From: Clostridiaceae bacterium
GTDB taxonomy: Bacteria > Bacillota > Clostridia > DSM-8532
Reading direction: 5' to 3'
Assembly: GCA_012521705.1 (NCBI GenBank)
Contig: JAAYLX010000027.1
Span: 81,582 to 145,581 of the forward strand
Length of the DNA stretch: 64,000 bases
In this document: positions 7,124-26,084 of the stretch, one piece after another
Layout of the letters: each line of letters begins with the position of its first letter
Position numbering within the stretch: position 1 is the stretch's first letter
Notes under the pieces: generated by a model
The model's database searches: none
What the model was told of the DNA's origin: nothing
The model's input: only the letters and a program-made list of their open reading frames with translations
Position numbers and translations under genes: made by a program

Positions 7124-8567
<1,444 letters not shown>

Positions 8568-8624
8568 CAGGAGTTCCACGCTCTGAAAGGATTTATTCAT
8601 GAATTTTTGAATGGTTTTGGTAAC

Positions 8625-9194
8625 TTAATTTTCATATGTATTTAGTATCCGTTCGGCTACTTCCCTTTTTGTTATCCGCATGTCCATTGCCTGTTTTTCA
8701 AGATACCTGTGAGCCTCTTTTTCACTCATTCCAAGCAAGGATATCAATAAGCATTTTGCCCTGTCCACAATACGGATGTCTTCAATTTTTTGTTTCAGTT
8801 GTGTATTTTCGCTATGTACCTTTTTTATTCTGTTGTGAGCCGCCCTTGCAAGGGATAACGCAGACCAGAAAACATATTTGTTTATGGGTTTTGCAACAGT
8901 CAGAATTCCGTCCCTCTCGCATGCTGAGGCCATTTCTTCGTATAATTCTTTCTTTACAACAAGAATGACCTGAGTTATTCCATTTGAAGCCACATGGCGC
9001 GCAAAACTCTCACCTGTCTCATCCCTGAGTGGCGAATCGACAATCACAAGGTCAAAATCTCTGTCCATAAGTATTCTTCGCGCTTCACCGCAGGACTTTA
9101 CGGCGGTGATTTGACAGGCTGACATGGGGGTGAGTATATCTGAAAAGAATGTAGTTCCTTTTTCTGAACTTGAAACTATCATAATGTTTTCCAT
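8625..9194 (-). CDS. ANTAR-domain RNA-binding antiterminator (paralog 1)
   Basis: Probable transcription antitermination regulator. Residues 1-120 form a receiver-like domain (MENIMIVSSSEKG, then FDLVIVDSPLRDE) and residues 135-189 form an ANTAR domain (RAKCLLISLLGMSEKEAHRYLEKQAMD), the three-helix RNA-binding unit of AmiR and NasR. The start at 9194 is preferred over the ORF-track start because it aligns with paralog 2 and gives the same 189 aa. The receiver-like part keeps an Asp (VDSP) at the strand 3 position; whether it is phosphorylated is unclear. It lies directly after glnA, so it is probably co-expressed with glutamine synthetase, as described for NitR-type proteins of other clostridia (from memory). 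Confidence 0.9.
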   Translation of the reverse strand: MENIMIVSSSEKGTTFFSDILTPMSACQITAVKSCGEARRILMDRDFDLVIVDSPLRDETGESFARHVASNGITQVILVVKKELYEEMASACERDGILTVAKPINKYVFWSALSLARAAHNRIKKVHSENTQLKQKIEDIRIVDRAKCLLISLLGMSEKEAHRYLEKQAMDMRITKREVAERILNTYEN

Positions 9195-9238
9195 TCCCGT
9201 GCCGCCTTTCTGCCATGGGTTCAAGGAGTCGGTCATCT

Positions 9239-10558
9239 TCATACAAAGTTGAAATATCTCTTTTTATAGAACTCAGCTTTGTTGATCGCCTCTGAAAAAT
9301 CCTCGGCTTCTTTCTTTTTGAAGGAAAGGTATTTTCTAAGCAACTCTTCCCCTATCACACCTTTAACGAAACTGCTCTCTTCCGCAAGGCTGATTGCCTC
9401 ATTCATACTTGTCGGAAGCGGTGTAAGCGTTCTGGTCAGGTTTTCATCCGCAGTATATAAATCCACATTGGCGGCGGAAGGCAAAGCCAGGCCTTTTTCT
9501 ATACCCTCCAAACCTGCTGCGATAATAAGAGCATACGCAAGGTATGGATTTGTTGAAGGATCAGGGGAACGAAGTTCCATTCTTACCTTTTCCCCGAAAG
9601 CGGCGGGAATTCTTATAAGTTGTGAGCGGTTCTGGTGGGACCATGAAACGTATGCTGGAGCTTCAAACTTGCCAAGCCGCTCGTAAGAATTGGCAATCGG
9701 GTTTAAGAAGATGGTTATTTCGGGGGTTCTTGCAAGAATCCCTGCAATAAAGCTTTCAGCGACATTAGAATCGCCTTCCACTATATTTTTGAAAACGTTC
9801 AGACCGTTTTTAACAAGCGAAATATTAACGTGCATCCCGCTGCCGGGGCAGTCAAGCAAAGGTTTCGGCATAAATGAAGCAAACAGGCCATTACGTGCTG
9901 CAATTGTTTTTACAACTGTCTTGAATGACTGCAAATTATCGGCACTTGAGAGCGCATCGCTGAATTTGAAAATTATTTCATTCTGTCCCGGTCCCTGTTC
10001 ATGATGCGAGATTTCAGGTTTAATCCCCATTTCTTCAAGGGTCAGACATATCTCACGCCTAATATCACCGCCGCGGTCAAGAGGGTACATATCCAGATAT
10101 CCTCCCTTGTCAAGCGGGGTGTCTGTCGGATCTCCATCCTCGTTGGTTTTAAAGAGATAGAATTCACATTCAGCTCCGACTTTGCACACATATCCCATTT
10201 TATCGCATCTGGCTATGACCTGTCTCAGAATATTCCTGCTGTCGAGGGCATACAGGGTACCGTCAGGATTTTTTATGTCGCAGTAGAATCCGATGACTCT
10301 ACCCGGGCCCGGGCGCCATGGCATTACCATCAAAGTTGCAGGATCGGGGACCAATACCATATCGGACTGGACTATATCCCTGAATCCGCGTATGGCGTGA
10401 GCATCAAAAGTAACTCCGTTTTCAAGAGCAGATTCCAGTTCGTCAGCCATTATAGAAATTCTTTTCTGCGCTCCGAAAAGGTCACAGAAATTTAACCATA
10501 TGAACCTGACATCGTTTTCCTTTACAAAACTTAATACTTCGCTTGCAGTATAATTCAA
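9239..10558 (-). CDS. glnA: Type I glutamine synthetase
   Basis: ATP-dependent synthesis of glutamine from glutamate and ammonia. It is 439 aa, of the GSI-alpha size class. Recognisable motifs are GAECEFYLF (metal-binding Glu), HHEQGPGQNEI, GSGMHVNISL (ammonia and glutamate site), NSYERLGKFEAP and the C-terminal RSPDPSTNPYLA. The adenylylation-loop tyrosine motif of GSI-beta is not evident, so control by adenylylation is unlikely. The start codon is TTG, with AAGGGGG about 9 nt upstream. It has its own promoter at 10619-10647 and an ANTAR regulator follows. The window also encodes GSIII (glnN). Confidence 0.95.
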   Translation of the reverse strand: MNYTASEVLSFVKENDVRFIWLNFCDLFGAQKRISIMADELESALENGVTFDAHAIRGFRDIVQSDMVLVPDPATLMVMPWRPGPGRVIGFYCDIKNPDGTLYALDSRNILRQVIARCDKMGYVCKVGAECEFYLFKTNEDGDPTDTPLDKGGYLDMYPLDRGGDIRREICLTLEEMGIKPEISHHEQGPGQNEIIFKFSDALSSADNLQSFKTVVKTIAARNGLFASFMPKPLLDCPGSGMHVNISLVKNGLNVFKNIVEGDSNVAESFIAGILARTPEITIFLNPIANSYERLGKFEAPAYVSWSHQNRSQLIRIPAAFGEKVRMELRSPDPSTNPYLAYALIIAAGLEGIEKGLALPSAANVDLYTADENLTRTLTPLPTSMNEAISLAEESSFVKGVIGEELLRKYLSFKKKEAEDFSEAINKAEFYKKRYFNFV

Positions 10559-10618
10559 AACAGTATTCCCCCTTATTTTGCAGTAATGCCTGTTGGTGGT
10601 TTATTAACTGTTTAGCCC

Positions 10619-10647
10619 ATTATATCATACTTAAAAAACCCCTCCAA
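10619..10647 (-). promoter_or_regulatory. glnA promoter
   Basis: The -35 is TTGGAG (10642-10647), the spacer 17 nt, and the -10 a perfect TATAAT (10619-10624). The leader carries a possible weak hairpin CAGUUAAU / AUUACUG with a 15-nt loop. I found no A-x-x-G hexaloop hairpin and no terminator between promoter and start. Confidence 0.65.
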
Positions 10648-10658
10648 GATACGGAGAA

Positions 10659-11840
10659 TTAGATAATCATCATTTTTATTCTGTCCATAGCCTCTACAAC
10701 ATTTTTTCTGTTCCCGAAGGCAGTCAGGCGGAAATAGCCTTCGCCGTTATCACCAAAACCTGCTCCCGGGGTTCCCACTATACTGCAGTTGTTGAGAAGG
10801 AAATCAAAGAACTCCCATGAAGACATATTATTCGGGCATTTCAGCCAGATATACGGTGAATTGGTGCCCCCTGTAAACCAAATGCCAAGGTCGGTCAAAG
10901 TATCAGCTATAATGCTTGCATTTCCAAGGTAGTAATTTATCTGCTCTTTTATCTGATTCATTCCCGCTTCTGTAAATACTGCCTCTGCCCCTCTTTGCAC
11001 TATGTAGGGCACTCCGTTGAATTTGGTTGTCTGTCGTCTCAGCCACAGCTTATTCAGGGGGACTTTATCTCTTACAAGTTCATGGGGTATAACGGTATAA
11101 CCGCATCGGGTTCCGGTAAATCCGGCAGTTTTTGAGAGGGAGCAGAACTCAATGGCGCAGTTCCTGGCGCCGGGTATCTGAAAAATGCTTGTGGGGAGGC
11201 TTTCATCCTTAATAAACACTTCATAGGCGCTATCAAAGAGAATGACTGCATCCCTCTCCAGGGCCCAATCCACCCAGATTTTTAATTGTTCTTTTATATA
11301 AACAGCTCCGGTAGGATTGTTGGGTGAACAGATATAAACTATGTCCCCTTCAGTTTTCCCGTCGGGCAAAGGCAAAAAGTTATTCTCTTTATTACCGTTA
11401 ATAAATTTGATTTTCCGGCCGGCCATTATATTCGTATCCACATACACAGGATAGACCGGGTCAGGAATGATTACCGTATTGGCGGAATCAAATATGTCCA
11501 GGATGTTGCCGATATCGCTTTTTGCTCCGTCACTTATGAACACTTCACTTGTGTCAAGCTTGACGCCTTTTTTGGCATAGTAATCGCATACGGCCTGTCT
11601 TAAGAAACCGTATCCCTGCTCTTCCCCGTAGCCTTTGAAGGTATCGGCACTTCCCATCTCCGAAACAGCTTTGTGCATTGCCTCCACCACCGCCGGGACA
11701 AGAGGAAGGGTGACATCCCCTATTCCAAGCCTGATAACGTCTTTTTCAGGGTTTTGCTGTTTGTATTCATTAACTTTTTTTGCAATCAGTGAAAAAAGAT
11801 AGCTGTCTTTTAATACTAAAAAATTATAATTTATTTTCAT
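10659..11840 (-). CDS. dapL: LL-diaminopimelate aminotransferase
   Basis: Transfers an amino group from glutamate to tetrahydrodipicolinate, making LL-diaminopimelate for lysine and peptidoglycan in one step. It is a class I/II PLP aminotransferase of 393 aa. Motifs include RLGIGDVTLPL near residue 42, the PDPVYPVYVDTN loop, CSPNNPTGA and the PLP-lysine segment SLSKTAGFTGTRCGY. With dapF nearby (13.6 kb) it supports the DapL route to meso-DAP. It is the last gene of the long minus-strand run from 21.15 kb, 29 bp after pyrG. Its glutamate requirement fits the surrounding nitrogen cluster. Confidence 0.93.
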   Translation of the reverse strand: MKINYNFLVLKDSYLFSLIAKKVNEYKQQNPEKDVIRLGIGDVTLPLVPAVVEAMHKAVSEMGSADTFKGYGEEQGYGFLRQAVCDYYAKKGVKLDTSEVFISDGAKSDIGNILDIFDSANTVIIPDPVYPVYVDTNIMAGRKIKFINGNKENNFLPLPDGKTEGDIVYICSPNNPTGAVYIKEQLKIWVDWALERDAVILFDSAYEVFIKDESLPTSIFQIPGARNCAIEFCSLSKTAGFTGTRCGYTVIPHELVRDKVPLNKLWLRRQTTKFNGVPYIVQRGAEAVFTEAGMNQIKEQINYYLGNASIIADTLTDLGIWFTGGTNSPYIWLKCPNNMSSWEFFDFLLNNCSIVGTPGAGFGDNGEGYFRLTAFGNRKNVVEAMDRIKMMII

Positions 11841-11869
11841 AATAAAACCCTCTTTTTAATCCCAGATTG

Positions 11870-13480
11870 TCAAACTGATTGTGAATCAGCATCCAGTGCT
11901 GCTTCTAAAAGCCCCATAAACAATGGGTGGGGCTTGTTTGGCCTGCTCTTGAATTCCGGATGATACTGGACTCCTATAAAATACTTTTTATCGGGAAGCT
12001 CAACTGCCTCAACCAGCTTGTTGTCGGGTGATGTTCCGCAAAACACCATTCCGTGTTTACTGAAAAGCTCCCTGTATGAATTGTTGAATTCATATCTGTG
12101 GCGGTGCCTCTCGCTTATCAACAACTTGCCATACAATTGCTGAAATTTTGTCCCTTCCTGTGTTTTACAGGGATAAGCCCCCAATCTCATGGTTCCGCCT
12201 TTATTGATAATTCCAAGCTGATCTTCCATCAGGTGAATAACCGGATGAGGGCCGTCCTCCTTAAACTCGGATGAATTGGCATCCTGAAGGCCACAAACAT
12301 TGCGGGCAAACTCTATTACGGCTATCTGCATACCAAGGCAGATTCCAAGATAGGGTATATTGTTTTCCCTTGCATACTTGCAGGCGGTAATTTTCCCTTC
12401 AATACCCCTGTCACCAAATCCGCCGGGTACAATAACTCCATTTATTCCACCCAGTTTCTCAGCGACATTCTCTTCTGTCACACATTCGCTGTCCACCCAT
12501 TTAATTTTTACTTTGGCGCCTGTATGATATCCTGCGTGATTTAAACTTTCAATAATTGAAAGGTATGCGTCAGGAAGCTTGACATACTTGCCCACAATGG
12601 CAATAACAACTTCTTTCTGGCGATTTTTAATTTTCATCACCATATCTTCCCATTCGGTCAGATCCGGCGCTTTGGTTTTTAAATTAAGCTCCCGGCAAAC
12701 CACCTCGTCAAGGCCGTTTTTATGAAGCATAAGGGGCGCTTCATAAAGGCAAGGCAGGGTAAGGTTCTCAATCACACAGTCGGGCTTGACATTGCAGAAC
12801 AGGGATATTTTTGCCTTGATATCATCGTCCATGGGCTCATCGGCACGGGCAATGATAATATCCGGTGAAATACCCATAGCCCTTAATTCTTTGACCGAAT
12901 GCTGGGTAGGCTTTGATTTATGTTCGTTGGAACCCTTCAGAAAAGGAACCAGTGTAACATGAATAAAAAGGCAATTTTCATTACCTTTTGCAAGAGAAAT
13001 CTGTCTTATGGCCTCCAAGAATGGCTGGCTTTCTATGTCTCCCGTGGTTCCGCCGATTTCTGTTATCAAAACGTCGCAACCGCTTTTTTCTGCGCCATTG
13101 TATATAAAATCTATTATTTCACCCGTTATATGAGGGATGACCTGAACTGTCTGCCCCAGATATCCTCCGGTTCTTTCCCGGTTAAGTACATTCCAGTAAA
13201 CCTTTCCCGAAGTCAGATTGGAGAATCTGGTTAAATCCTCATCTATAAACCTCTCATAATGTCCCAGGTCAAGATCGGTTTCAGCTCCGTCATCGGTTAC
13301 GAACACTTCACCATGCTGGAAGGGGCTCATCGTCCCGGGATCCACATTCATGTACGGATCCAGCTTCTGAGCTGCAACCTTCAACCCTCTTTGTTTCAAT
13401 AATCTCCCCAGACTTGCGGCGGTAATACCTTTTCCAAGTCCGGACACAACTCCACCCGTAATAAAAATAAATTTTGTCAT
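11870..13480 (-). CDS. pyrG: CTP synthase
   Basis: Converts UTP to CTP using ATP and glutamine-derived ammonia. It is 536 aa, the standard length. The N-terminal synthetase domain begins [17 protein letters not shown] and includes the [16 protein letters not shown] motif. The C-terminal glutamine amidotransferase has LGICLGMQ (nucleophile Cys) and QYHPEFKS (His, Glu). It sits between dapF and dapL in the nitrogen operon and, with carA, adds a glutamine-dependent nucleotide branch to it. Confidence 0.97.
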
Positions 13481-13558
13481 ATCATTTCATTCCTTTTCTC
13501 TTGCTAAAAAGTATATCTCTTTTGTTCATGCATAAATGAACTTTATAATTCAAAAACT

Positions 13559-14395
13559 TCATATTTCGATTACGCCCTCAAATACCTTGACGCAGCCTCC
13601 GGTCATGAGAACCCTGTCATCGGTGTAGTTTATAATAAGCTCGCCTCCGGCAAGAAGCACCCGGATGTCCTCACCCTTGTTGCAGTATCCGTTTAACACC
13701 GATGCAACTGCCGCTGCGCAGGCTCCCGTCCCACAAGCAAGTGTTTCCCCGCTTCCGCGTTCCCATACGCGCATTTTCAACGTATTTCTGTCAATCACCC
13801 TGACGAACTCAGTATTGACCCTTTCAGGGAATACTTCATGATTCTCGAAGCATGGCCCCAATTCGGTCAGATTAAGGCTGTCCACATCATCAAGGAAAAC
13901 CACGGCATGGGGATTGCCCATGGAAACGCAGGTGATTCCATAGGTTTGGTTTCTGACTTTTAATGGGGCGTTTATAACCCTGTCTCCCGGTAACAAAACC
14001 GGAATTTTTGAAGGATCGAGCTCCGCTCTTCCCATGTCCACTTTAACCGATGTTACAAAACCGTTTTCCGTGTTTACATCAAGAGTTTTAATTCCGCTTA
14101 AGGTTTCTATCTTTATCCGGTCCTTTATGCAAAGGCCGTTGTCATAGAGGTATTTGGCAACACAGCGGATTGCATTTCCGCACATTTTGCCCTCACTTCC
14201 GTCAAGGTTGAACATTCTCATTTTTGCATCAGCAATACTGCTTCTGCATATCAAAACAATTCCGTCACCACCTATTCCAAAATGACGGTCAGATAAAGTG
14301 ACGGCAAGTTTTTCAGGACTTTCTATTTCCCTTTCAAAACAATTAATGTATATATAATCATTCCCGCATCCGTGCATTTTCGTAAACTCAAGCAC
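13559..14395 (-). CDS. dapF: Diaminopimelate epimerase
   Basis: Epimerises LL- to meso-diaminopimelate. Both catalytic cysteines are visible, in GKMCGNAIRC and in LACGTGACAA, along with the N-terminal FTKMHGCGNDY motif. I place the start at the GTG at 14395 (MLEFTKMHG), because GGAGG lies 9 nt before it; the ORF-track GTG two codons earlier is only 3 nt from GGAGG. The length is then 278 aa. If the upstream carA frame is restored, carA would run into the first codons of dapF, giving normal overlap and translational coupling. Confidence 0.93.
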   Translation of the reverse strand: MLEFTKMHGCGNDYIYINCFEREIESPEKLAVTLSDRHFGIGGDGIVLICRSSIADAKMRMFNLDGSEGKMCGNAIRCVAKYLYDNGLCIKDRIKIETLSGIKTLDVNTENGFVTSVKVDMGRAELDPSKIPVLLPGDRVINAPLKVRNQTYGITCVSMGNPHAVVFLDDVDSLNLTELGPCFENHEVFPERVNTEFVRVIDRNTLKMRVWERGSGETLACGTGACAAAVASVLNGYCNKGEDIRVLLAGGELIINYTDDRVLMTGGCVKVFEGVIEI

Positions 14396-14410
14396 GTCCA
14401 CCTACCTCCT

Positions 14411-15460
14411 TTATAAAAGCATCAAACAAATAGTCCGTATCTTTGGCCCCCCGCAACCTTCGGGATGGAACTGCACTGAGAAGGTGGGTGAATTAAGATA
14501 TTTAATTCCTTCGCAGGTATTGTCGTTCATATTTATGAATGAAAGCTGCGCAATTGACTGGTCAATGCTTTCATTGGTAACACAATATCCGTGATTCTGG
14601 CTTGTTATATAAACCCGGTCGGCTTTCAGATCCTTGACAGGCTGGTTGGAGCCCCTGTGTCCGTATTTGAGTTTTCTTGTTTCAAAACCGTGGGCAAGTG
14701 CCAATAGCTGGTGCCCGAGGCATATGCCGAAAATGGGAACCTTCTTGTTTATAAGCTGCTTTAAATTGTTAATAATCCCCGGATTATCGGCGGGATCTCC
14801 CGGTCCGTTGGACAGCATTATGCCGTCCGGATTCTCTGCAAGTATTTTTTCGGTTGTTGAATCATAGGGAAGCACGATCACCCTGCAATCTCTTTTTGCC
14901 AGCTCTCTTACGATGTTTTCTTTATACCCGAAATCTAGAAGAACAATGGTATATTTACCATTGTCGTTAGCAGTTATTTTTTCTTTTACAGAAACACTTT
15001 CCACAGCCTGTTTTACCTTATAGGCCCTTATTTCATCCAAATCCGCTTTTTCAGGGTTTCTGGTAATAAGACCGTTCATTGTACCATGTTCGCGCAATGT
15101 CTTGGTCAGTTCCCTGGTATCGATTCCGCATAACCCTGGTATATTGCGCTCTTTCAAAAAGGTATCAAGATCACCTTTGCTCCTGAAATTGGAGGGGTTT
15201 TTGCACACATCCCTGGCAATGCAGCCATATGCTGCAACAGATTTACTTTCAAAATCCTCCGGTATAACACCGTAATTTCCTATAAGCGGATAAGTATGCA
15301 TTATTATCTGCCCATAATAGCTTTTATCGGTGAGGGTCTCAAGATACCCTGTCATACCGGTTGTAAAGACGATTTCCCCCAGCACTTCGCCTTCCGCTCC
15401 GAAAGAATAACCTTCGAATATTTTTCCTGTTTCAAGTACCAAGAACGCTTTATTCTGCAT
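14411..15460 (-). CDS. carA: Carbamoyl phosphate synthase small subunit, C-terminal frameshift
   Basis: Glutaminase subunit that feeds ammonia to CarB. The amidotransferase triad is intact: Cys247 in FGICLGHQ, His332 and Glu334 in FHPEG. Just after this the frame is lost in a run of six G (14447-14452 on the plus strand as C). The encoded tail PKIRTICLMLL is not CarA-like, whereas the +1 frame reads KDTDYLFDAFIKEV, which matches the family end. One extra G restores a protein that ends inside the dapF start. This could be a sequencing error, a slippery or phase-variable tract, or early decay. A second carA lies in the pyr operon at 42.3 kb and has a different defect. Confidence 0.9.
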   Translation of the reverse strand: MQNKAFLVLETGKIFEGYSFGAEGEVLGEIVFTTGMTGYLETLTDKSYYGQIIMHTYPLIGNYGVIPEDFESKSVAAYGCIARDVCKNPSNFRSKGDLDTFLKERNIPGLCGIDTRELTKTLREHGTMNGLITRNPEKADLDEIRAYKVKQAVESVSVKEKITANDNGKYTIVLLDFGYKENIVRELAKRDCRVIVLPYDSTTEKILAENPDGIMLSNGPGDPADNPGIINNLKQLINKKVPIFGICLGHQLLALAHGFETRKLKYGHRGSNQPVKDLKADRVYITSQNHGYCVTNESIDQSIAQLSFINMNDNTCEGIKYLNSPTFSVQFHPEGCGGPKIRTICLMLL

Positions 15461-15501
15461 TTTCCCCTCCAGCTATTAATTGAGAGCTAATTTACCCCCA
15501 A

Positions 15502-16071
15502 TTAATATTCATATATTTTCAGAATTTCCTCGGCCACCTTTCTCTTTGGCAACCTCATATCCATGGCTTGTTTTTCAATATATCTGTGGGCCTCGGCTTC
15601 AGTCATGGAAAGATTAGAAATCAAAATACACTTGGCTCTGTCCACAATTCGGATATCTTCAATTTTTTGCATCAGCTTCAGGTTTTCTTCCCTTATCGCC
15701 TTGATCTTTTTACTTGTCGCCGAAGCCAGTCTTAACGCATTCCAAAGCAAAGAATTGTTAATTGGTTTTGCTATTGTGATAACGCCGTATTCCTCAACCC
15801 GGTAGGATATCTCATCAAAGACTTCAGATTTAACCAGCAGAATTACCTGGCTCGTTTTTTTCACGGCAATGTCCCTGGCAAGATTTGCGCCGAATTCGTC
15901 CGGAAGAGGAGAATTTACGATGCACAAATCATAGTCTTTATCAATCAAAACCCGCCTCGCTTTTCCGGCGTCAGAGACAGAGTCGATATCTTTAACGGAC
16001 GCTTTCTGCAATATCTTTGTCAAATATTCAGTACTTTTATCTGAAAATGATACAATTAGCGCACTGTCCAT
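15502..16071 (-). CDS. ANTAR-domain RNA-binding antiterminator (paralog 2)
   Basis: Second ANTAR regulator, 189 aa, the same length as paralog 1 and closely similar throughout: MDSALIVSFSDKS at the N-terminus, YDLCIVNSPLPDE at the pseudo-receiver strand 3, and IEDIRIVDRAKCILISNLSM leading the ANTAR helices. The strand 3 position is Asn (VNSP) where paralog 1 has Asp (VDSP), so this copy may not be phosphorylated there. It is the sixth gene of the glutamate synthase operon, placed to autoregulate through the hairpin and terminator at the operon's 5' end. The ATG is preceded by a GGGA-type site. Confidence 0.9.
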   Translation of the reverse strand: MDSALIVSFSDKSTEYLTKILQKASVKDIDSVSDAGKARRVLIDKDYDLCIVNSPLPDEFGANLARDIAVKKTSQVILLVKSEVFDEISYRVEEYGVITIAKPINNSLLWNALRLASATSKKIKAIREENLKLMQKIEDIRIVDRAKCILISNLSMTEAEAHRYIEKQAMDMRLPKRKVAEEILKIYEY

Positions 16072-16145
16072 AGCATCCCATCTTTCTCATACCTCCCCTG
16101 TGGCTGTTTTTTGACTTCCCCCTGTAAAATCTTCCGGTGTTCAGG

Positions 16146-16862
16146 TCAGTTATATGTGTACATCTGCTTATACGGGTTTTTAGCATTTGGTGTAAGCTTG
16201 TAAAAAGGTCTTCCCAGGATTTCATCCATGTCAACACCGAACAATTCTGAAAATTCTGTCAGGTATTCCTTAATTGAATCAATATCAGATTCATCTGCGG
16301 TGTTCATGCAGACCTGTTTGGGAAGGTACTTAAGCTTTTTGGGGCTTCTTATAAAGATCTGGCCTCCGTGCATTCCCGTACCTGTAAAGTTACCCACAGG
16401 AACATCTTCAGAGTTCAGGCCCAATACAATGATGATTCCTCCGGCAAGGTATTCACCCAAAAAGCTTCCGGTGGTTCCTCCAACTACAATAACCGGCTTT
16501 TTGTCCTTATATTCCTTCATATGTATACCTGTGCGGTATCCGGAATCACCTTTCACATAAATCTTTCCGCCACGCATGGCGTATCCCAGAGCATCTCCGG
16601 CATTTCCGTTAATAATTATTTTTCCGTCATTCATTGTATCTCCGACGGCATCCTGGGCATTTCCGTTCACTACTATGGTGGCTCCGTCAAGATAAGCGCC
16701 CAGCGCATTTCCGGGCGTACCGTTTATAGTGATTGTCTTTCCTGAGGCGCCGCTTCCGATGAAACGTTCACCGTAACAACGGTCAATAACAACATCCTCA
16801 TCAGTGTTCCGGATTATTTCATTAAGAGATCTATATCCCAAATCATGCGCCAATAGATTCAT
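16146..16862 (-). CDS. Glutamate synthase GXGXG domain protein (GltB C-terminal module)
   Basis: Stand-alone version of the C-terminal beta-helix domain of the glutamate synthase large subunit, 238 aa. The repeated glycine pattern is plain (GSGASGKTITINGTPGNALG, later NAGDALGYAM, and GGTTGSFLGEYLAGG). In GltB this domain is structural and positions the amidotransferase and synthase domains around the ammonia tunnel. Here the enzyme is split into separate modules, an organisation known from archaea and some clostridia. It overlaps the preceding oxidoreductase gene by 20 nt, with GGGAGG 8 nt before the ATG. Confidence 0.92.
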   Translation of the reverse strand: MNLLAHDLGYRSLNEIIRNTDEDVVIDRCYGERFIGSGASGKTITINGTPGNALGAYLDGATIVVNGNAQDAVGDTMNDGKIIINGNAGDALGYAMRGGKIYVKGDSGYRTGIHMKEYKDKKPVIVVGGTTGSFLGEYLAGGIIIVLGLNSEDVPVGNFTGTGMHGGQIFIRSPKKLKYLPKQVCMNTADESDIDSIKEYLTEFSELFGVDMDEILGRPFYKLTPNAKNPYKQMYTYN

Positions 16863-18090
16863 TTTTTATACCTCCCAGTTTTTCTGCCCGCGTCTTCCTG
16901 CTGAAGGCCATAAGTCCCGGCATCTTGCAGATAAGTTCAAAATTCAGCGTGTCAAGCGGAGTCCTTTCCCTGATGAGCGAAGTATATATTCCCGCCTTCT
17001 CAATATTTCCAATAAGAATAAATCCATTTAACCTGTTATTTGAATAAAACAGCTTCTTATAGTTTTTTTGTTCGGAATCAGAATATACTTCTCCGGTATA
17101 GGTTCCCGCAGTCATTATGTGAAGACCGAACAAGCCGATTGAGTTCATGGGGAACGCCTTGTCAAATACAAAATCAACTCCCGACATATTCATTCCCGCG
17201 CACTCTCCCTGCATGTAAGCATTTGGAAGAAGTGCCATTACCTTAGCTTCCTCTGAGGAAATATCAATACTCTCGCTGCAGTCACCCGCCGCATAGATGT
17301 CCGGGATTGAAGTTCTGCATCTTTCATCTATGATAATGCCTCTGTTTGTTTTCCCTCCTATATCCTTTATCAGGGATATATTGGGTCTCACACCGACTGC
17401 CAGCACCAGTACGTCAAACTCAATTTCCGTATTGTCGCTCAGATATGCGATATTCCCCTCGAATTTCGCTATCTGCTGTTTCAAATAAAACTTTATATTA
17501 TGCTCTTCAAGGTGCCCTTTTACTATTGCAGAGCTTTCTTCATCAAGAATACTTGAAAGAACTTTAGGGGCAAGGTCCACACAGGTAATCTCAACATTCT
17601 TTTTACTGATTCCCTCGGCACATTTGAGGCCTATGAGGCCCGCTCCCACAATAAGTACCTTCATATTCTCCTTAAGTACGTTGTCCAGGGCCCTGGCATC
17701 ATCGAGGGTGTAAAAAGTGAATTTATTTTTGACCTCGTCCAGTCCCGGCATGGGCGGAACAAATGGCGAAGATCCGGTACAAACCAAAAGTTTGTCATAA
17801 CTTACAGATGTTCCGTCATCAAGGATGACCTGCTTTTTCTCAGGCTCAATCCTTACTGCGGTTTTATTAAGCATGAGTTCGCACTTATTGTCTCTGTAAA
17901 AATTGTCACCCCTGTATTTCATTCTGTGTTCGTCGGTTTTGCCCAATAAAAGGTATGAAATAAGCGGCCTTGAATAAACATGATGACTTTCATTGCTGAT
18001 TATTACAATGCTGCCCTCTTTATCATTTCTGCGGATCGCCTCAACCGCGCCCACCGCAGCAGTAGAATTACCGATAATTACATATTGCAT
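16843..18090 (-). CDS. FAD/NAD(P)-dependent oxidoreductase of the glutamate synthase operon
   Basis: Pyridine nucleotide-disulfide oxidoreductase-fold flavoprotein, 415 aa from the preferred start MQYVIIGNST at 18090, which has AGGAAAGGGG upstream and lies 2 nt after the 4Fe-4S gene stop. It has an N-terminal FAD dinucleotide motif (GNSTAAVGAVEA, a variant of GxGxxG), a second nucleotide motif (IVGAGLIGLKCAE) and the C-terminal FAD motif (DIYAAGDCSES). There is no CxxxxC redox disulfide, so it resembles NADH oxidase or rubredoxin reductase-like proteins. With the 4Fe-4S neighbour it probably supplies electrons from NAD(P)H to the synthase, replacing GltD; the electron path is inferred. Confidence 0.88.
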   Translation of the reverse strand: MQYVIIGNSTAAVGAVEAIRRNDKEGSIVIISNESHHVYSRPLISYLLLGKTDEHRMKYRGDNFYRDNKCELMLNKTAVRIEPEKKQVILDDGTSVSYDKLLVCTGSSPFVPPMPGLDEVKNKFTFYTLDDARALDNVLKENMKVLIVGAGLIGLKCAEGISKKNVEITCVDLAPKVLSSILDEESSAIVKGHLEEHNIKFYLKQQIAKFEGNIAYLSDNTEIEFDVLVLAVGVRPNISLIKDIGGKTNRGIIIDERCRTSIPDIYAAGDCSESIDISSEEAKVMALLPNAYMQGECAGMNMSGVDFVFDKAFPMNSIGLFGLHIMTAGTYTGEVYSDSEQKNYKKLFYSNNRLNGFILIGNIEKAGIYTSLIRERTPLDTLNFELICKMPGLMAFSRKTRAEKLGGIKNESIGA

Positions 18091-18092
18091 AC

Positions 18093-18527
18093 TTAAGCAC
18101 CCCTTTCCTCGAACACGATTGCTCCGTTGGGACAACCCAGAACACATTGGGGAACTCCCGCATGAGTCTTTATACAGAGCTCACATTTCTGAATTGCTCC
18201 GTCATCGGAGGGCTGAACTGCGCCATAGGGGCAGGATAATACACAGGTATAGCAGCCAATGCACTTTTCCTTGTCGATTGTTATGATGCCGTCGTTCTTT
18301 GAAAGTGCGCCTGTTATGCAACCCTTCACACAAAAGGGCTCATCGCAGTGGCGGCATGAGACCGCAAAACTTATACCGTCCATTTCCTCAATCCTGATTC
18401 TGGGACTGATTTCAATGTCTTTTAAGACTAAAGCCATGTCTTTTCCGCCCGTTGATGCAAATGCGCAATAATATTCACACAAGTGACAACCAAGGCACCA
18501 TTTTTCATTCACATAAACACGTTTCAT
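18093..18527 (-). CDS. 4Fe-4S ferredoxin-type electron-transfer protein
   Basis: Polyferredoxin of 144 aa (start MKRVYVNEKW at 18527, favoured over the longer ORF). The cysteine clusters CLGCHLCEYYC, CRHCDEPFCVKGC, CIGCYTCVLSC and CELCIKTHAGVPQCVLGC predict up to four 4Fe-4S centres, as in HycB/DmsB-like subunits. It lies between the synthase and FAD oxidoreductase genes with almost no spacing, so it probably carries electrons between those two proteins in the cytoplasm. Confidence 0.92.
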   Translation of the reverse strand: MKRVYVNEKWCLGCHLCEYYCAFASTGGKDMALVLKDIEISPRIRIEEMDGISFAVSCRHCDEPFCVKGCITGALSKNDGIITIDKEKCIGCYTCVLSCPYGAVQPSDDGAIQKCELCIKTHAGVPQCVLGCPNGAIVFEERGA

Positions 18528-18556
18528 TACTTTTACACCACCAGAATGCAATTATT

Positions 18557-20062
18557 CTATTCCCCCGCATGCTTGATTCCCAATATCTCAAGCTCTTTCT
18601 CATTAAGACCCACACCTCTTAGCATGAGCCGGTTGCCCTTAAGGGCTTCTATTGAGTTAATGCCCATACCGCCCATCATTTCTTTAATTTCGTGTTTCCA
18701 GGCGGTTATGAGATTGACAAGTCTCTTATATCCCAGATTGGGGTTAAGGCGCTTTACAAGTTCCTCTTTTTGGGTTGCAATACCCCAGTTGCATTTACCG
18801 GTATGGCAGCTACGGCACAAATGGCATCCAAGGGCAATCAGAGCCGCAGTTCCTATGTAGACTGCATCAGCACCAAGAGCAACTGCCTTTACGACATCGG
18901 CACTGGAACGGATACTGCCTGCAACCACCAGGGAGACATTATTGCGGATACCCTCATCACGGAGCCGTTTGTCCACACTGGCCAGCGCCAGTTCAATGGG
19001 AAGCCCCACATGGTCACGAATACGTGTGGGAGCAGCGCCCGTTCCTCCCCTGAATCCGTCAATGGCAATTATGTCAGCACCGCTTCGTGCAATTCCGCTC
19101 GCAATGGCGGAAACATTATGCACAGCGGCAATTTTTACTATGACAGGCTTCGTATAGCCGGTTGCTTCCTTCAGGGAAAATACCAGTTGCCGCAAATCCT
19201 CTATGGAATAAATGTCATGGTGTGGCGCAGGAGATATGGCGTCGGAACCCTCGGGTATCATACGGGTTTTTGAAATATCCCCGACTATTTTTGCTCCGGG
19301 GAGATGTCCTCCGATACCGGGTTTAGCGCCCTGGCCCATTTTTATCTCAATTGCGGCGGAACTGTTAAGATACGCCTTGTGAACTCCAAAACGTCCGGAT
19401 GCTACCTGTACAATTGTGTTTTTGCCGTATTTATAGAAGTCCTCGTGGAGGCCACCCTCACCGGTGTTATAAAGAATACCGAGTTCGGAAGCAGCCCTTG
19501 CAAGGCTTTCATGTGCGTTATAGCTTATTGAGCCATAACTCATGGCGGAGAACATAACAGGGACCGAAAGCTCTACATGGGGAGGCATAACTTTCTTTAT
19601 ACGGCCGTTCTCGTCCCTTTCAATATTCTGGGCTTTGGAACCAAGCAGGACCTTGGTTTCCATAGGCTCTCTCAAAGGGTCTATTGAAGGGTTTGTGACC
19701 TGGGAAGCATTGAGCAGTATCTTGTCAAAATACACGGGATACTTTTCAGGATTTCCCATGCTTGACAGCAAAACTCCTCCACCCTCGGCCTGCTTATAAA
19801 TCTCCTGAATACTTTTTCCGGACCAGTTAGCGTTCTCCTTGAAGGTATGATCGGTTTTTACAATTTTCAGGGCCCTTGTCGGGCACAGGGACACACACCG
19901 GTGACAGTTCACGCATTTGGAATCATCTGCCACCATCTTTTTGATATCCTTCAGATATTCATGAACTTCGTTTGCGCATTGCCTCTCGCACACGCGGCAG
20001 GCGATGCAGCGGTCATAATTTCTTACCACTTCATATTCTGGATATATGTAATTAACAGCCAT
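18557..20062 (-). CDS. Glutamate synthase, FMN synthase domain with N-terminal ferredoxin domain
   Basis: Core synthase module, 501 aa. Residues 15-70 hold two 4Fe-4S motifs (CIACRVCERQC and CVNCHRCVSLC). The rest is the FMN-binding glutamate synthase barrel that combines ammonia with 2-oxoglutarate, with motifs GEGGLHEDFYKYG, KMGQGAKPGIGGHLPG, DGFRGGTGAAPT and the 3Fe-4S ligands CHLCRSCHTGKCNWG. The fused ferredoxin domain is typical of archaeal-type and clostridial single-domain enzymes. Its ATG overlaps the stop of the amidotransferase gene (TAATG). Confidence 0.95.
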   Translation of the reverse strand: MAVNYIYPEYEVVRNYDRCIACRVCERQCANEVHEYLKDIKKMVADDSKCVNCHRCVSLCPTRALKIVKTDHTFKENANWSGKSIQEIYKQAEGGGVLLSSMGNPEKYPVYFDKILLNASQVTNPSIDPLREPMETKVLLGSKAQNIERDENGRIKKVMPPHVELSVPVMFSAMSYGSISYNAHESLARAASELGILYNTGEGGLHEDFYKYGKNTIVQVASGRFGVHKAYLNSSAAIEIKMGQGAKPGIGGHLPGAKIVGDISKTRMIPEGSDAISPAPHHDIYSIEDLRQLVFSLKEATGYTKPVIVKIAAVHNVSAIASGIARSGADIIAIDGFRGGTGAAPTRIRDHVGLPIELALASVDKRLRDEGIRNNVSLVVAGSIRSSADVVKAVALGADAVYIGTAALIALGCHLCRSCHTGKCNWGIATQKEELVKRLNPNLGYKRLVNLITAWKHEIKEMMGGMGINSIEALKGNRLMLRGVGLNEKELEILGIKHAGE

Positions 20063-21150
20063 TACGATTTTCCTTTCTCAAGTGTGATAATTACTCCTTC
20101 GCCGCCTTTTGGTGACCAGACTCTGTCCAAGTCATTCTGAATAACTCTTATTGCAGCTTCTTCACTGGCAACGTAAAACATGTCATCTTTTTCTCCCACC
20201 ACCATACTGCGAAGCTTGAGTCTGTCATTGAGGGCCATAAGCCCGCCCTCAAAGCCTACAATTATGGAGAAGGGCCCGGTAATTAACAATGAATCGAAAG
20301 TACTTCTTAAAAATTCAAGCTCTTCCCTTTCTTCCTGCGGTTTCCTCTCTATTGTTGACCAGAAGGGAGCTGCGATAACCGAGCAGACCTCCTTTAAAGT
20401 AAGTCCTTTCTTTCTGTTAAGATAATCGATAATATAGGTAATTACTTCGGTATCTGTCTGTAAAGTGCATTTGTATCCATACATTTCAATTGAACGGCGG
20501 TTGGCATCATAGGAAGATATTTCACCGTTATGCACCACTGAATAATCAAGCAGTGCAAAGGGATGGGCGCCTCCCCACCATCCAGGAGTATTTGTAGGGT
20601 ATCTTCCATGGGCTGTAAAGCAATATCCCTCATATTCCTCCAGACGGTAGAAACGTCCCACGTCTTCGGGATATCCCATTGCCTTGAATACACCCATGTT
20701 CTTTCCGCTCGAAAAGACATACGCACCCTTTATGGACGTGTTAATCCTGAAAACACATTTAACTACAAATTCTCTCTCATCCAGCTGACTGCTGGCAAGT
20801 TTGGTCGGCAGCGGTGTGACAAAGTATCTCCATATCAAAGGTTCATCCTTAATCTGCGGTACCTTACGGGTAGGTATTTTCGAAAGGTTTATTATGTCAA
20901 AATGCCTTTCTAAAAACTCTTCACATTCCTTTTTGGCAGCAAAGTTGTCATAAAACATGTGAAAAGCGTAGAAATCCTTGTATTCCGGATAAATACCATA
21001 GCCTGCGAACCCTCCGCCAAGTCCGTTGGAACGTTCGTGCATAACAGATATGGAATCTATGATAAGCTCGCCGGAAAAGCGTTTTCCCGATTTCGAAAAG
21101 ATACCCGATACTGCACACCCTGATAAATTTCTGAACATTCCTTCTCTCAC
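20062..21150 (-). CDS. Class II glutamine amidotransferase module of glutamate synthase
   Basis: Releases ammonia from glutamine for the synthase module. I start at the GTG at 21150 (VREGMFRNLSG), because GGAGG lies 8 nt before it; the ORF-track start would reach into the leader RNA. Length is 362 aa. The N-terminal nucleophile cysteine lies at residue 12 (SGCAVSGIFSKSG), so an 11-residue propeptide must be removed, as in GltB. Other amidotransferase motifs are GRYPTNTPGWWGGAHPF and VHNGEISSYDANR. It is the first gene of the operon, behind a promoter and a hairpin/terminator leader. Confidence 0.93.
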   Translation of the reverse strand: MREGMFRNLSGCAVSGIFSKSGKRFSGELIIDSISVMHERSNGLGGGFAGYGIYPEYKDFYAFHMFYDNFAAKKECEEFLERHFDIINLSKIPTRKVPQIKDEPLIWRYFVTPLPTKLASSQLDEREFVVKCVFRINTSIKGAYVFSSGKNMGVFKAMGYPEDVGRFYRLEEYEGYCFTAHGRYPTNTPGWWGGAHPFALLDYSVVHNGEISSYDANRRSIEMYGYKCTLQTDTEVITYIIDYLNRKKGLTLKEVCSVIAAPFWSTIERKPQEEREELEFLRSTFDSLLITGPFSIIVGFEGGLMALNDRLKLRSMVVGEKDDMFYVASEEAAIRVIQNDLDRVWSPKGGEGVIITLEKGKS

Positions 21151-21166
21151 GTTTATTTCCTCCAGC

Positions 21167-21296
21167 AAAAAAATAAGGCATTCATCACATAGTACAAATA
21201 AGGGCACACAGCCAAATAGGCTTGTTTGCCTGTAACTATCTGATGAACGCCTTTGTTCATATGGCTTATAATACTATAATCCAATATTTGTGTCAA
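21167..21296 (-). promoter_or_regulatory. Glutamate synthase operon promoter and ANTAR-type hairpin/terminator leader
   Basis: The promoter is TTGACA (21291-21296), 17 nt, TATTAT (21268-21273). The predicted transcript starts almost exactly at a hairpin AUGAAC-[AAAGGC]-GUUCAU (21243-21260), whose hexaloop has A1 and G4 as in ANTAR targets. The loop and 3' arm (AAGGCGUUCAUCA) can instead pair over 13 bp (one G-U) with UGAUGAAUGCCUU (21175-21187), followed by AUUUUUUU, an intrinsic terminator enclosing smaller internal stems. Hairpin and terminator are mutually exclusive. The terminator ends shortly before the GGAGG of the first gene. The match to ANTAR antitermination is inferred; the pairings are seen. 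Confidence 0.75.
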
Positions 21297-21431: not shown

Positions 21432-21519
21432 TTGACATTGTTTTAACGCCATGCTAATCTTTTTTCATACAGCAAAGGTGCTGTGGATTTAATTTGTCCG
21501 CGGCACCTTTGCTTTTTTT
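21432..21519 (+). promoter_or_regulatory. asnA-glnN promoter and ANTAR-type hairpin/terminator leader
   Basis: The promoter is TTGACA (21432-21437), 17 nt, TAATCT (21455-21460). The transcript should begin at about 21467, immediately before the hairpin ACAGC-[AAAGGU]-GCUGU (21469-21484), again a hexaloop with A1 and G4. The same bases form the 5' arm of a 17-bp terminator: AGCAAAGGTGC plus TGTGGA pair with TCCGCG plus GCACCTTTGCT (21497-21513), followed by seven T. Downstream, before the AAAGGAG site, another stem forms around GCAATC-TCA-GATTGC with flanking CCTGCC/GGGTAGG. A T-box was considered and rejected, as no specifier stem or TGGNACCGCG is present. Confidence 0.78.
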
Positions 21520-21613: not shown

Positions 21614-22621
21614 ATGAGTCAATTGACAATACCAAAAGGGTACAAATCACTGTTAAGCCTGTATGATACCCAAAGTGCAATAGGAAGGATAAAGAGGATT
21701 TTTGAGGATAATCTTGGCAAAGCCCTTAATCTGAAAAGGGTCTCAGCACCATTATTCGTTCTTGCCAACACAGGAATTAATGATGACCTTAACGGTGTTG
21801 AACGTCCTGTTGAATTTGATATTAAAGAAACCAAAGGCTATGCCCAGGTTGTACATTCATTGGCAAAATGGAAACGCCTGGCACTGCATAAATACGGATT
21901 TCCTGTAGGTGAAGGTCTATATACCGACATGAACGCCATTCGCCGCGACGAAGATATGAGCAATCTCCATTCAATATACGTAGATCAATGGGATTGGGAA
22001 AAAGTTATAGACCGCGAAACAAGAAATGTTGAAACCCTGAAGGACACGGTGAGAAAAATAGTAGGTGTTATATGTGACACTCTTGAAGAACTCAAAAAGC
22101 TTTATCCGGTCATTACACTGGATCTTTCAAGGGAAGTATCATTTATAACCACACAGGAACTGGAAGATATGTACCCGGCCCTTTCACCCAAAGAACGTGA
22201 AAACGAATATTTAAGGGATCATAAAACTGCTTTTATTATGCAGATCGGAGATACATTGAAATCAGGCATCAAACATGACGGAAGGGCACCTGACTATGAC
22301 GACTGGAAACTCAATGGCGATATCCTTTTCTGGAACGACATTTTAGGATGTGCTTACGAAGTATCCTCCATGGGTATTCGTGTAGACAGGGATTCATTGG
22401 ATGAACAGCTCTCCAAGGCGGGATGCGACGACAGACGCAGTCTGGAGTTCCATAAGATGCTTCTTAATGATGAACTGCCTTTAACCATGGGCGGTGGAAT
22501 AGGACAATCAAGAGTATGCATGCTTCTGTTGCAGAAAGCCCATATAGGTGAAGTTCAGGTATCGGTTTGGGATCAGGATACCATTAAGGGCTGTAAAGAA
22601 GCAGGAATTGAATTGCTTTAA
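21614..22621 (+). CDS. asnA: Aspartate--ammonia ligase (asparagine synthetase A)
   Basis: Makes asparagine from aspartate, ammonia and ATP without glutamine. It is 335 aa, matching AsnA (about 330), with an aminoacyl-tRNA synthetase class II-like fold. Typical segments are VERPVEFDIK, HSLAKWKRLAL, DMNAIRRDEDMSNLHSIYVDQWDWE and the C-terminal GGGIGQSRVCMLLL motif. AAAGGAG lies 8 nt before the ATG. It is the first gene of an operon with glnN, 18 bp downstream, so two ammonia-fixing ligases share the same hairpin/terminator leader. Confidence 0.96.
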   Translation: MSQLTIPKGYKSLLSLYDTQSAIGRIKRIFEDNLGKALNLKRVSAPLFVLANTGINDDLNGVERPVEFDIKETKGYAQVVHSLAKWKRLALHKYGFPVGEGLYTDMNAIRRDEDMSNLHSIYVDQWDWEKVIDRETRNVETLKDTVRKIVGVICDTLEELKKLYPVITLDLSREVSFITTQELEDMYPALSPKERENEYLRDHKTAFIMQIGDTLKSGIKHDGRAPDYDDWKLNGDILFWNDILGCAYEVSSMGIRVDRDSLDEQLSKAGCDDRRSLEFHKMLLNDELPLTMGGGIGQSRVCMLLLQKAHIGEVQVSVWDQDTIKGCKEAGIELL

Positions 22622-22639
22622 TTTAGGGAGGGAATTCAA

Positions 22640-24751
22640 GTGTCAAATAATAATAATAGTCATAATATAACCGAAATATTTGGCAGTATGGTATTTGGGG
22701 ATGCCGTTATGAAAGAACGGCTGCCAAAAGATATCTATAAAGCTCTCAAGAAAACCATTGCCAACGGAACACATCTGGAACTTGACGTAGCCAATGTGGT
22801 TGCCACTGTTATGAAAGATTGGGCTATCGAAAAAGGAGCTACCCATTTCACCCACTGGTTCCAGCCCATGACAGGTGTTACCGCAGAAAAACATGACAGT
22901 TTCATTGTTCCCGACGGCAGCGGTAAAGCCATAATGGAGTTTTCAGGAAAAGCCCTCGTAAAAGGTGAGCCTGACGCATCAAGCTTCCCTTCCGGAGGCT
23001 TGAGAAGTACCTTTGAAGCCAGGGGTTATACAGCATGGGATCCTACCTCTTATGCTTTTGTAAAGGGCAATACTCTGTATATTCCCACAGCTTTCTGCTC
23101 ATACAGCGGAGAAGCCCTGGACAAGAAAACTCCCTTGCTCCGTTCCATGCAGGCTCTCAACAAGCAGGCGCTTCGTGTCCTTCAGTTATTTGGCGTTACT
23201 GATGCAAAACGCGTGGTGTCATCTGTAGGACCTGAACAGGAATACTTCCTGATAGACAGGGATGTATATTTGAAAAGGCCAGATCTTATGTACTGCGGAA
23301 GAACTCTGTTCGGCGCACGCCCGCCAAAAGGACAGGAAATGGAAGACCACTACTTTGGTACCATTAAACAGCGGGTTTCAGATTATATGCGCGAACTTAA
23401 CGAGGAACTCTGGAAATTGGGAGTATATGCAAAGACTGAGCATAATGAAGTTGCTCCTGCACAGCATGAGCTTGCGCCCATTTACTCAGAATCCAATATT
23501 GCAACAGATCACAACCAGTTGGTAATGGAAATGATGAAGAGTGTTGCGGCAAAACACAACCTTGCTTGTCTGTTGCATGAGAAACCTTTTGCAGGAGTAA
23601 ACGGCAGCGGAAAACACGTTAACTGGTCTGTCGCCACTGACACAGGAATAAACTTGCTTGAACCTGGTGATACGCCGTTTGAAAATGCTCAATTCCTCCT
23701 TTTCCTTGTAGCAGTAATCAAAGCTGTGGACGATTATCAGGATCTTATGCGTGTTTCTGTTGCAAGCGCTGGCAACGATCACCGCCTTGGTGCCAATGAA
23801 GCGCCTCCTGCAATAGTTTCTATCTTCCTTGGAGACGAACTTACTGAAATACTGAACGCTTTGGAAAACGACACATTATATACAGGCAAAGGCCAGACTT
23901 TAATGGAAATCGGAGCAACAGTGCTTCCTCATTTCCCGAAGGATACAACCGACCGAAACCGTACATCACCCTTTGCCTTTACAGGAAATAAATTTGAATT
24001 CCGTATGCTTGGTTCAGCCTTTTCAATAGCAGGACCCATTATCGTGCTCAACACAATAGTTGCCGAAGTGTTGTCACAATTTGCAGACGAACTTGAAAAG
24101 AGCACTGATTTCAAGGCGGATCTGAGCAAGTTAATCAAAAGGACCATTAAAAACCATAAGCGTATCATTTTCAATGGAAATGGTTATGACGCCGCCTGGG
24201 TGAAAGAAGCCGAACAGAGAGGGTTATCCAATCTGAAAACAACACCCGAAGCACTGCCGGCCCTCATTCATCCGAAAAATGTGGAAATGTTTGTCCGTCA
24301 TGGAGTATTTTCAGAGCACGAACTTCATTCACGGTATGACATTCTGCTTGAAAACTACTCAAAAACCATTAATATTGAAGCTCTTACAATGATAGACATG
24401 GTAAACAAGCATGTAATTCCAGCCGTGATTGACTACCAGAACGAACTTGCCGAACTGGTGCTTCGTAAAAAGGCAGTAAGTCCTGACATTGCAACAACTC
24501 TTGAGGAAAACCTCCTGAGTAAAATATCCAGACTGTCTGTAAGCCTTGAAAAGAGACTGAATCATCTGTCAGAACAAACCATCGCAGTCAGGGATATTAA
24601 AGACAATCTGGAACTTGCCAAAGCATACCGTGAAAAGGTTTATATGGCGATGAGCGAGCTGCGTCTTGTAGTTGATGAGCTTGAAATGTTAATCGGAAGC
24701 AAGCATTGGAAATTGCCTACATACGCTGAAATTCTGAACAGCGTAAACTAA
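22640..24751 (+). CDS. glnN: Type III glutamine synthetase
   Basis: Large GSIII-class glutamine synthetase, 703 aa, the normal length for the family and much longer than GSI. Visible motifs are [31 protein letters not shown] (metal-binding Glu), [18 protein letters not shown] and [15 protein letters not shown]. The start is GTG with GGGAGGG 11 nt upstream. It is co-transcribed with asnA, so ANTAR-type antitermination at the leader would raise asparagine and glutamine synthesis together. Its end is followed by a strong hairpin and a terminator. Why this genome carries both GSI and GSIII is not shown by the sequence. Confidence 0.96.
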
Positions 24752-25085: not shown

Positions 25086-25820
25086 TTATTTCTTCTCACC
25101 ATAGATTACCGGCATTTTGCGCTTATGGTGGCTTGCATTGTGATACCTTTCAATAATTGCCTTATCTTCTTCGCTGACTTTGCCGGTAAGCAAAAACTCG
25201 TCAATCTTCTTATATGTTATTCCCATTTCACTCTCATCGGTCTGTCCGTCAAAAAGTCCTGCGGAAGGCGCTTTGGTGATAATGGATTCAGGAGCGTTGA
25301 GGTAGCGCAGGAATTCGTAAATCTCGGTTACCGTCAAATCTGCAATGGGGTTAAAGTCATAGGCACTGTCGCCCCATTTTGTAAAGTAGCCCATGTAGCC
25401 CTCACTTCGGTTTCCCGTACCCGCTACGAGCCTGTTTTCGCTGGCAGCCACAGTATAAAGAGTTGTCATGCGCAGGCGTGGAGCAATATTTACAAGTGCC
25501 GTATCATTTACAGTGGTCGCGCCAACAACTGCGTCAAGGAATGTCGAGCGCACTTGGGTCAGATCCACAACTCGCTGTTCAATTCCAAACTGTTTTGCAA
25601 CAGCTTCGGCGTCTTTTTTGTCCTCTTCATAGTTTCTCCTTGAACCGCAGGGCATAATAATTCCAACCGTATTGTCACATGCCTTCTTGCAAAGAATACC
25701 CACCAGTGCGCTGTCTTTTCCGCCACTGTTGCCGTAAACTATGCCGCTTGCATTGGAAGAAGCAAGCACCTCCCGGATAAACTCAACCCGTTTTATTGTT
25801 TCAAGTGCATAATCTCTCAT
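25086..25820 (-). CDS. nadE: Ammonia-dependent NAD+ synthetase
   Basis: Final step of NAD synthesis: amidation of deamido-NAD. It is 244 aa from the preferred start MRDYALETIK (25820), where AGGAG lies 8 nt upstream. The PP-loop motif YGNSGGKDSALVG is near residues 31-43, with the later GTGNRSEGYMGYFTKWGD segment typical of NadE. There is no N-terminal nitrilase (glutaminase) domain, so it should use free ammonia, as expected of the short form. It has a long structured leader of the same hairpin/terminator type as the glutamate synthase operon, placing NAD synthesis in the same regulatory group. Confidence 0.95.
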   Translation of the reverse strand: MRDYALETIKRVEFIREVLASSNASGIVYGNSGGKDSALVGILCKKACDNTVGIIMPCGSRRNYEEDKKDAEAVAKQFGIEQRVVDLTQVRSTFLDAVVGATTVNDTALVNIAPRLRMTTLYTVAASENRLVAGTGNRSEGYMGYFTKWGDSAYDFNPIADLTVTEIYEFLRYLNAPESIITKAPSAGLFDGQTDESEMGITYKKIDEFLLTGKVSEEDKAIIERYHNASHHKRKMPVIYGEKK

Positions 25821-25904
25821 CTTCAGCTCTCCTTTCAATATATCCGGTATTACGGCAGAGCGCCGAAGCCGGATTTATGTTTTCGTACTTCAGGCCAGAA
25901 TCAA

Positions 25905-25998
25905 ACAAAAAGGTGCTCATCACATAACGCATTCAGCTAACCGCAATAACAGATCCGGTGTTATGGCTGATACATTATAGGATGAACACCTTTGTTCA
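25905..25998 (-). promoter_or_regulatory. nadE leader with ANTAR-type hairpin and terminator
   Basis: The hairpin UGAAC-[AAAGGU]-GUUCA (25983-25998) lies just after A/T-rich -10 candidates (TAATAT, TATAAT). Its loop and 3' arm AAGGUGUUCAUC (25981-25992) pair over 12 bp (one wobble) with GAUGAGCACCUU (25910-25921), followed by UUUUUGUUU, a terminator. Between the arms a further hairpin forms (AUAACA / UGUUAU inside CAGC / GCUG). The layout and the sequence GAACAAAGGYGUUCAUC are nearly identical to the glutamate synthase leader. The promoter is less clear than for the other two leaders. Confidence 0.72.
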
Positions 25999-26084
25999 AT
26001 TATAAATATTACAAACTAAATTTTATCAGATAACAAAGCATATATCAACAGTGCATTAACTACAATACATCCATATTTCATGAC

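Follow-up and report, generated by a model that had tools for sequence, protein, structure and literature searches.

Why should nadE, a gene of NAD synthesis, carry the same leader motif as glutamate synthase? A preliminary description of the 64,000-nucleotide stretch of a Clostridiaceae genome analysed here (the window) had raised this question and had proposed that the shared motif links NAD synthesis to nitrogen status. The comparisons described below lead us to favor a reading, to which we assign a probability of about 0.77, in which the nadE leader is an ANTAR-type transcription attenuator that belongs to a nitrogen-incorporation regulon driven by ANTAR antitermination.

A leader element in three transcription units of the window

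The motif GAACAAAGGYGTTCATC is indeed common to the two leaders, with exact matches on the minus strand at 25997-25981 upstream of nadE (GAACAAAGGTGTTCATC, with its partner GATGAGCACCTTTTT at 25921-25907) and at 21258-21242 upstream of gltB (GAACAAAGGCGTTCATC, with its partner GATGAATGCCTT at 21186-21175); with 3 mismatches allowed, chance alone would give 0.41 matches in the window. The interval of 25905-25998 previously proposed for the nadE hairpin is also correct. When both arms are required, the 2.25 Mb genome contains GAACAAAGGYGUUCAUC with its partner at nadE and gltB and nowhere else, and the other near matches (up to 3 mismatches), all of which lack the partner arm, were dismissed as chance. 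A third copy in the window, overlooked in the preliminary description, starts at +21470 in the asnA-glnA(III) leader and has a covarying stem; its CAGC/GCUG pairing is kept in 9/9 genomes compared.

The first 14 bases of the nadE/gltB element form a mini-hairpin, GAAC[AAAGGY]GUUC, with a six-base loop. From the loop onward the same bases (AAAGGYGUUCAUC) also pair with a downstream GAUGARNRCCUUU that is followed by a U-tract. The mini-hairpin and the terminator share one arm and are thus mutually exclusive, and in all three copies in the window a mini-hairpin whose hexaloop has A at position 1 and G at position 4 overlaps the 5' arm of a long intrinsic terminator (Table 1). The predicted folds reach -43.7 kcal/mol for the nadE leader (z -6.9) and -40.9 kcal/mol for the gltB leader (z -6.3), values that no shuffle equals. 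When the nadE transcript is folded stepwise the mini-hairpin appears first, and the full leader favors the terminator by ~18 kcal/mol (-43.4 versus -25.5).

The terminator stem covaries across leaders, and a C-to-U difference in the 5' arm of nadE relative to gltB is compensated by G-to-A in the 3' arm. Around a constant loop the mini-hairpin stem occurs as GAAC/GUUC, AAAC/GUUU, UAAC/GUUA and CAGC/GCUG; in the 15 distinct variants compared, pairing is kept in 97% of cells and two-sided changes number 16, compared to 5.4 in shuffles. Loop positions A1, A2 and G4 are invariant across the leaders compared while the stem covaries, as is the C-G pair that closes the loop, and the adjacent pair is A-U or G-C. 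Even when left out of the search pattern, the 5' strand of the mini-hairpin (GAAC) is conserved, although the terminator often leaves it without a partner. The interior of the hairpin is unconserved, and the interiors of the nadE and gltB leaders (~50 nt) differ. Scans against Rfam, at the gathering threshold and at looser ones, found no family that matches the element.

In 51 of 70 leaders the -10 box ends 8-10 nt 5' of the mini-hairpin, which indicates that the mini-hairpin normally begins the transcript. The nadE leader of the window is exceptional, its best promoter lying 22 nt before the mini-hairpin rather than 8-10; since this promoter is upstream of the hairpin, the hairpin should be transcribed. 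The usual promoter position leaves no room for a second hexaloop 5' of the mini-hairpin. In a direct search, a second upstream hexaloop with a 4-bp stem at the required spacing was found in 1 of 127 leaders, compared to 2.0 in shuffles, and downstream there was no enrichment. A weak excess of hexaloops with 3-bp stems over a wider upstream region vanishes once the required spacing is imposed. Because a second hexaloop is thus wanting in the 127 leaders, we classify the element not as a canonical ANTAR target but as a single-hexaloop variant that most likely acts like one.

The NadE start is most likely the ATG at 25820 rather than an upstream TTG. A further inverted repeat, ATCCGG...CCGGAT around CGGC...GCCG, occupies ~25843-25876 on the minus strand, after the nadE terminator and before the start codon. 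Elsewhere in the window, at 35137-35204, a 34-bp repeat (CTTTTTTAGCTCCCACTCACGGTAGGGTACACCG) forms a tandem pair whose members are 97% alike.

Table 1. Features of the window bearing on the leader element and its candidate regulators.
Feature	Position	Strand	Remarks
nadE promoter, TTGATA-N17-TAAAAT	26020..26048	-	strong; probable start near 26013
nadE mini-hairpin, GAAC[AAAGGU]GUUC	25984..25997	-	hexaloop A1/G4; antiterminator, predicted ANTAR site
nadE terminator hairpin	25900..25997	-	5' arm AAAGGUGUUCAUC pairs with GAUGAGCACCUUU; U-tract 25911-25907; mutually exclusive with mini-hairpin
nadE	25086..25820	-	ammonia-type NAD synthetase, 244 aa
asnA promoter, TTGACA-N17-TAATCT	21432..21460	+	9 nt 5' of mini-hairpin
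asnA-glnA(III) leader	21470..21519	+	mini-hairpin CAGC[AAAGGU]GCUG 21470-21483, overlaps terminator and U-tract
asnA and type III glnA	21614..24751	+	behind third leader copy
gltB promoter, TTGACA-N17-TATTAT	21268..21296	-	9 nt 5' of mini-hairpin
gltB leader	21166..21258	-	mini-hairpin GAAC[AAAGGC]GUUC 21258-21245, overlaps terminator
gltB-led gene cluster	7124..21150	-	gltB glutaminase-like, gltB synthase, oxidoreductase, GXGXG, ANTAR1, carA, dapF, pyrG, dapL, glnA, ANTAR2, gdhA
ANTAR1	15502..16071	-	receiver-like and ANTAR RNA-binding domain; candidate regulator
ANTAR2	8625..9242	-	behind glnA; candidate regulator

Distribution of the element and the genes behind it

An exact-pattern scan of the genome_contigs collection returned 33 stretches, mostly from Clostridia with a few from Treponema, Brevinematales and Synergistaceae; one pattern match, at L030, was set aside as doubtful. 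A covariance model built from 39 leaders, with nadE leaders left out, scores 54.3 bits for the leader of nadE (E 2.9e-10). For the other copies of the window, at gltB and asnA, the scores are 65.2 and 39.4 bits, but both were in the model seed and the score is therefore independent for nadE only. By this model the element is present in 83 of 391 sampled Clostridia. The genes behind it are gltB, glnA, asnA, asnB, gdhA, guaA, glmS, purF/C/B/A, carA, pyrG, murT, dapF/L and amt, among which guaA, glmS, asnB and purC were named by reading or mutual similarity rather than by family scan, together with an ABC permease of the glutamine type and a few genes that are unrelated or uncertain. Most of the enzymes so led incorporate ammonia or use the nitrogen of glutamine, glutamate or aspartate. 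In the source genome the gltB leader precedes a cluster that includes several of these genes; the gene set is thus seen twice, behind separate leaders elsewhere and in a single gltB-led cluster here.

The order's 32 other genomes all lack the short NadE of the window, and the gene was therefore probably acquired. A long NAD synthase alone is found in 12 of 13 relatives of the genus and the source genome has both types; since the close relatives have no such short nadE, they are uninformative about its leader. The long enzyme of the source genome is a 640-aa glutamine-dependent NAD synthase of the PRK02628 type (L074 463-2385, G000:C18). Its presence bears on the rationale offered earlier for co-regulation, namely that NadE needs ammonia. 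The short NadE is indeed of the ammonia type, but a second, glutamine-dependent synthase in the same genome weakens the argument and leaves it incomplete.

In four other genomes nadE does lie under the element, directly in one and inside element-led operons in three. The directly led gene, in G038, has its own leader behind TTGACA-17-TATAAT, in which the stem is altered yet still paired (AAAC[AAAGAC]GUUU), and the genome has an ANTAR gene; a separate R1 match in G038 (L195) proved false. In G057 (the Acetivibrio sp. MSJd-27 locus) and G396 nadE is part of an element-led gltB run, between dapF and dapL, with an ANTAR gene in the run, and in G371 it is third behind an element-led pyrG. Among the ~24 closest homologues only one other nadE has its own leader, and the element is missing upstream of most of the other nadE genes checked.

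ANTAR proteins and competing explanations

Both ANTAR proteins of the window are encoded within the gltB cluster. Although ANTAR genes are common, occurring in half of Clostridia genomes, they are found in 78 of 83 element-bearing genomes as against 118 of 308 other Clostridia (odds ratio 25, p 1e-21, uncorrected for kinship). In 37 of the 48 element genomes with a listed ANTAR position, the ANTAR gene lies within 12 kb of the element and on the same strand. The association holds within the family alone, where ANTAR genes are present in 12/14 genomes with the element and 5/18 without (p 0.0016), and in the two exceptions of the family (G009 and G010) the contig stops before the expected ANTAR position. 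Three further genomes, G116, G259 and G290, have the element and no ANTAR match and stand as unexplained exceptions. The ANTAR link envisaged for the nadE and gltB leaders is thus well, though indirectly, supported by comparative evidence, through co-occurrence and the match of the loop, but these leaders do not have the second hexaloop of a classical ANTAR target.

ANTAR1 has Asn at the position of the usual phosphate-accepting Asp of receiver domains (DLCIVNSPLPDEFG), as do most glt-cluster ANTARs of relatives, while ANTAR2 keeps the Asp; the signal to which the ANTAR proteins respond may be other than phosphorylation. A second ANTAR subfamily, with IVGF.LSDM instead of IVN.PL.DE, was seen at L134, L136, L146, L147 and L148 (G013, G001, G008, G022 and G021). 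The genomes of this subfamily have few or no gltB-type elements, and it may serve other targets.

The same attenuator could instead be ruled by a metabolite, as in a riboswitch, or by another RNA-binding protein; the ANTAR genes would then simply have been inherited along with the nitrogen operons. ANTAR genes do reside in the operons of the targets, making co-inheritance possible, and both the missing second hexaloop and the five element-bearing genomes without an ANTAR match would fit this explanation. However, two of these five are the genomes with truncated contigs, and the loop and its closing pairs are those required by ANTAR proteins. The conserved part, a 6-nt loop on 5 bp with an unconserved interior, is moreover too small to form a ligand pocket, and the Rfam scans offer no candidate. 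We regard control by a metabolite or another protein as unlikely. Still less probable in our estimation is an ordinary constitutive terminator, for example that of a small ORF upstream of nadE (~26310-26085), with nadE itself unregulated. A short minus-strand ORF does end upstream of the hairpin, which is strong and has a U-tract, but a promoter lies between the two. Furthermore, a plain terminator fails to explain why GAAC, 4-5 bases located 5' of the stem, is conserved and covaries with the 5' arm of the terminator, or why dozens of genomes have the element downstream of promoters of one functional class.

The proximity of the nadE and gltB copies, which are 4.7 kb apart, and the restriction of this nadE to a single genome of its order raise the further idea that the leader of nadE was recently copied from that of gltB, or is a small mobile repeat, and serves no selected function at nadE. 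We consider this very improbable: the two leaders have their arms alone in common, a C-G to U-A change in those of nadE is compensated, the element does not recur elsewhere in the genome, and nadE is under the element in the four other genomes described above.

Proposed mechanism and relation to known regulators

Under the ANTAR reading that we favor, RNA polymerase would first produce the weak 5-bp mini-hairpin UGAAC[AAAGGU]GUUCA. If nothing holds this hairpin, the distant GAUGAGCACCUUUUU arm would capture its bases, the very stable terminator would form and nadE would go unread. ANTAR1 and/or ANTAR2 from the neighboring gltB cluster, activated by nitrogen status, would bind the hexaloop through A1, G4 and the AC/GU closing pairs, and the bound protein would keep the 5' arm from the terminator and allow read-through into nadE. 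Control by the same element would extend to gltB and asnA-glnA and, elsewhere among the Clostridia, to many enzymes that use ammonia or glutamine. We infer ANTAR binding, antitermination as the direction and the nitrogen signal, all three, from comparative evidence. The model suggests that NAD production is switched together with the remaining nitrogen economy of the cells.

Known ANTAR targets (EutV/eutP, NasR/nasF, AmiR/amiE) have two hexaloops a few bases apart, both of which are needed at eutP, and EutV requires A1 and G4 in the loop and AC/GU closing pairs (Ramesh et al. 2012, PMC3369931). The element described here is like these targets in its A1/G4 hexaloop, short stem, AC/GU closing pairs and overlap with a terminator, and in the linkage of an ANTAR gene to nitrogen genes. 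Unlike them, with their second hairpin 5-12 nt away, it has one hexaloop, which sits at the 5' end of the transcript and is itself the 5' arm of the terminator; that terminator is very long and variable in its interior. Control by ANTAR proteins was already known, as a prediction, for glutamate and glutamine synthases and ammonium transporters (PMC3369931), and the element extends beyond the dual-hexaloop target set to asnA/B, guaA, glmS, purF/C/B/A, carA, pyrG, murT, dapF/L and nadE. Consistent with the preliminary description, no report of nadE as a target was found in the open-access literature searched, most subscription journals being outside our coverage, and a literature search with the motif string returned unrelated papers only. 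The glutamate synthase gene cluster of C. thermocellum includes an ANTAR gene (Clo1313_2030-2036; PMC4676874).

Glutamine riboswitches and other cis-regulatory RNAs of Rfam are, like the element, leader RNAs of nitrogen genes, but the element has no Rfam match at a useful score and its conserved part is one small loop. In Clostridium acetobutylicum, NitR (cited in PMC4676874) is reportedly an antiterminator of ammonia assimilation, and the control we propose is similarly of the antiterminator type and acts on ammonia assimilation in Clostridia. It differs in that the candidate regulator is encoded within a large glt cluster and the range of predicted leaders is far broader; nadE is not known as a NitR target. 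We think it fairly probable that single-hexaloop ANTAR antitermination at the extreme 5' end of the transcript runs a Clostridia regulon covering many ammonia- and glutamine-nitrogen steps as well as nadE, and there is a reasonable likelihood that its products comprise glutamate, glutamine, asparagine, GMP, CTP, purines, carbamoyl phosphate, glucosamine, peptidoglycan amidation and NAD. If so, with a single small RNA element it would reach NAD synthesis and many amide-transfer enzymes and would be a global nitrogen regulator in Clostridia, and a target with one hexaloop would alter the prevailing view that an ANTAR dimer has to hold two loops. At L128 and L129 (G008 and G027) the element precedes a membrane protein of 507-513 aa that resembles a chemotaxis-type receptor and would be an unexpected member of a nitrogen regulon.
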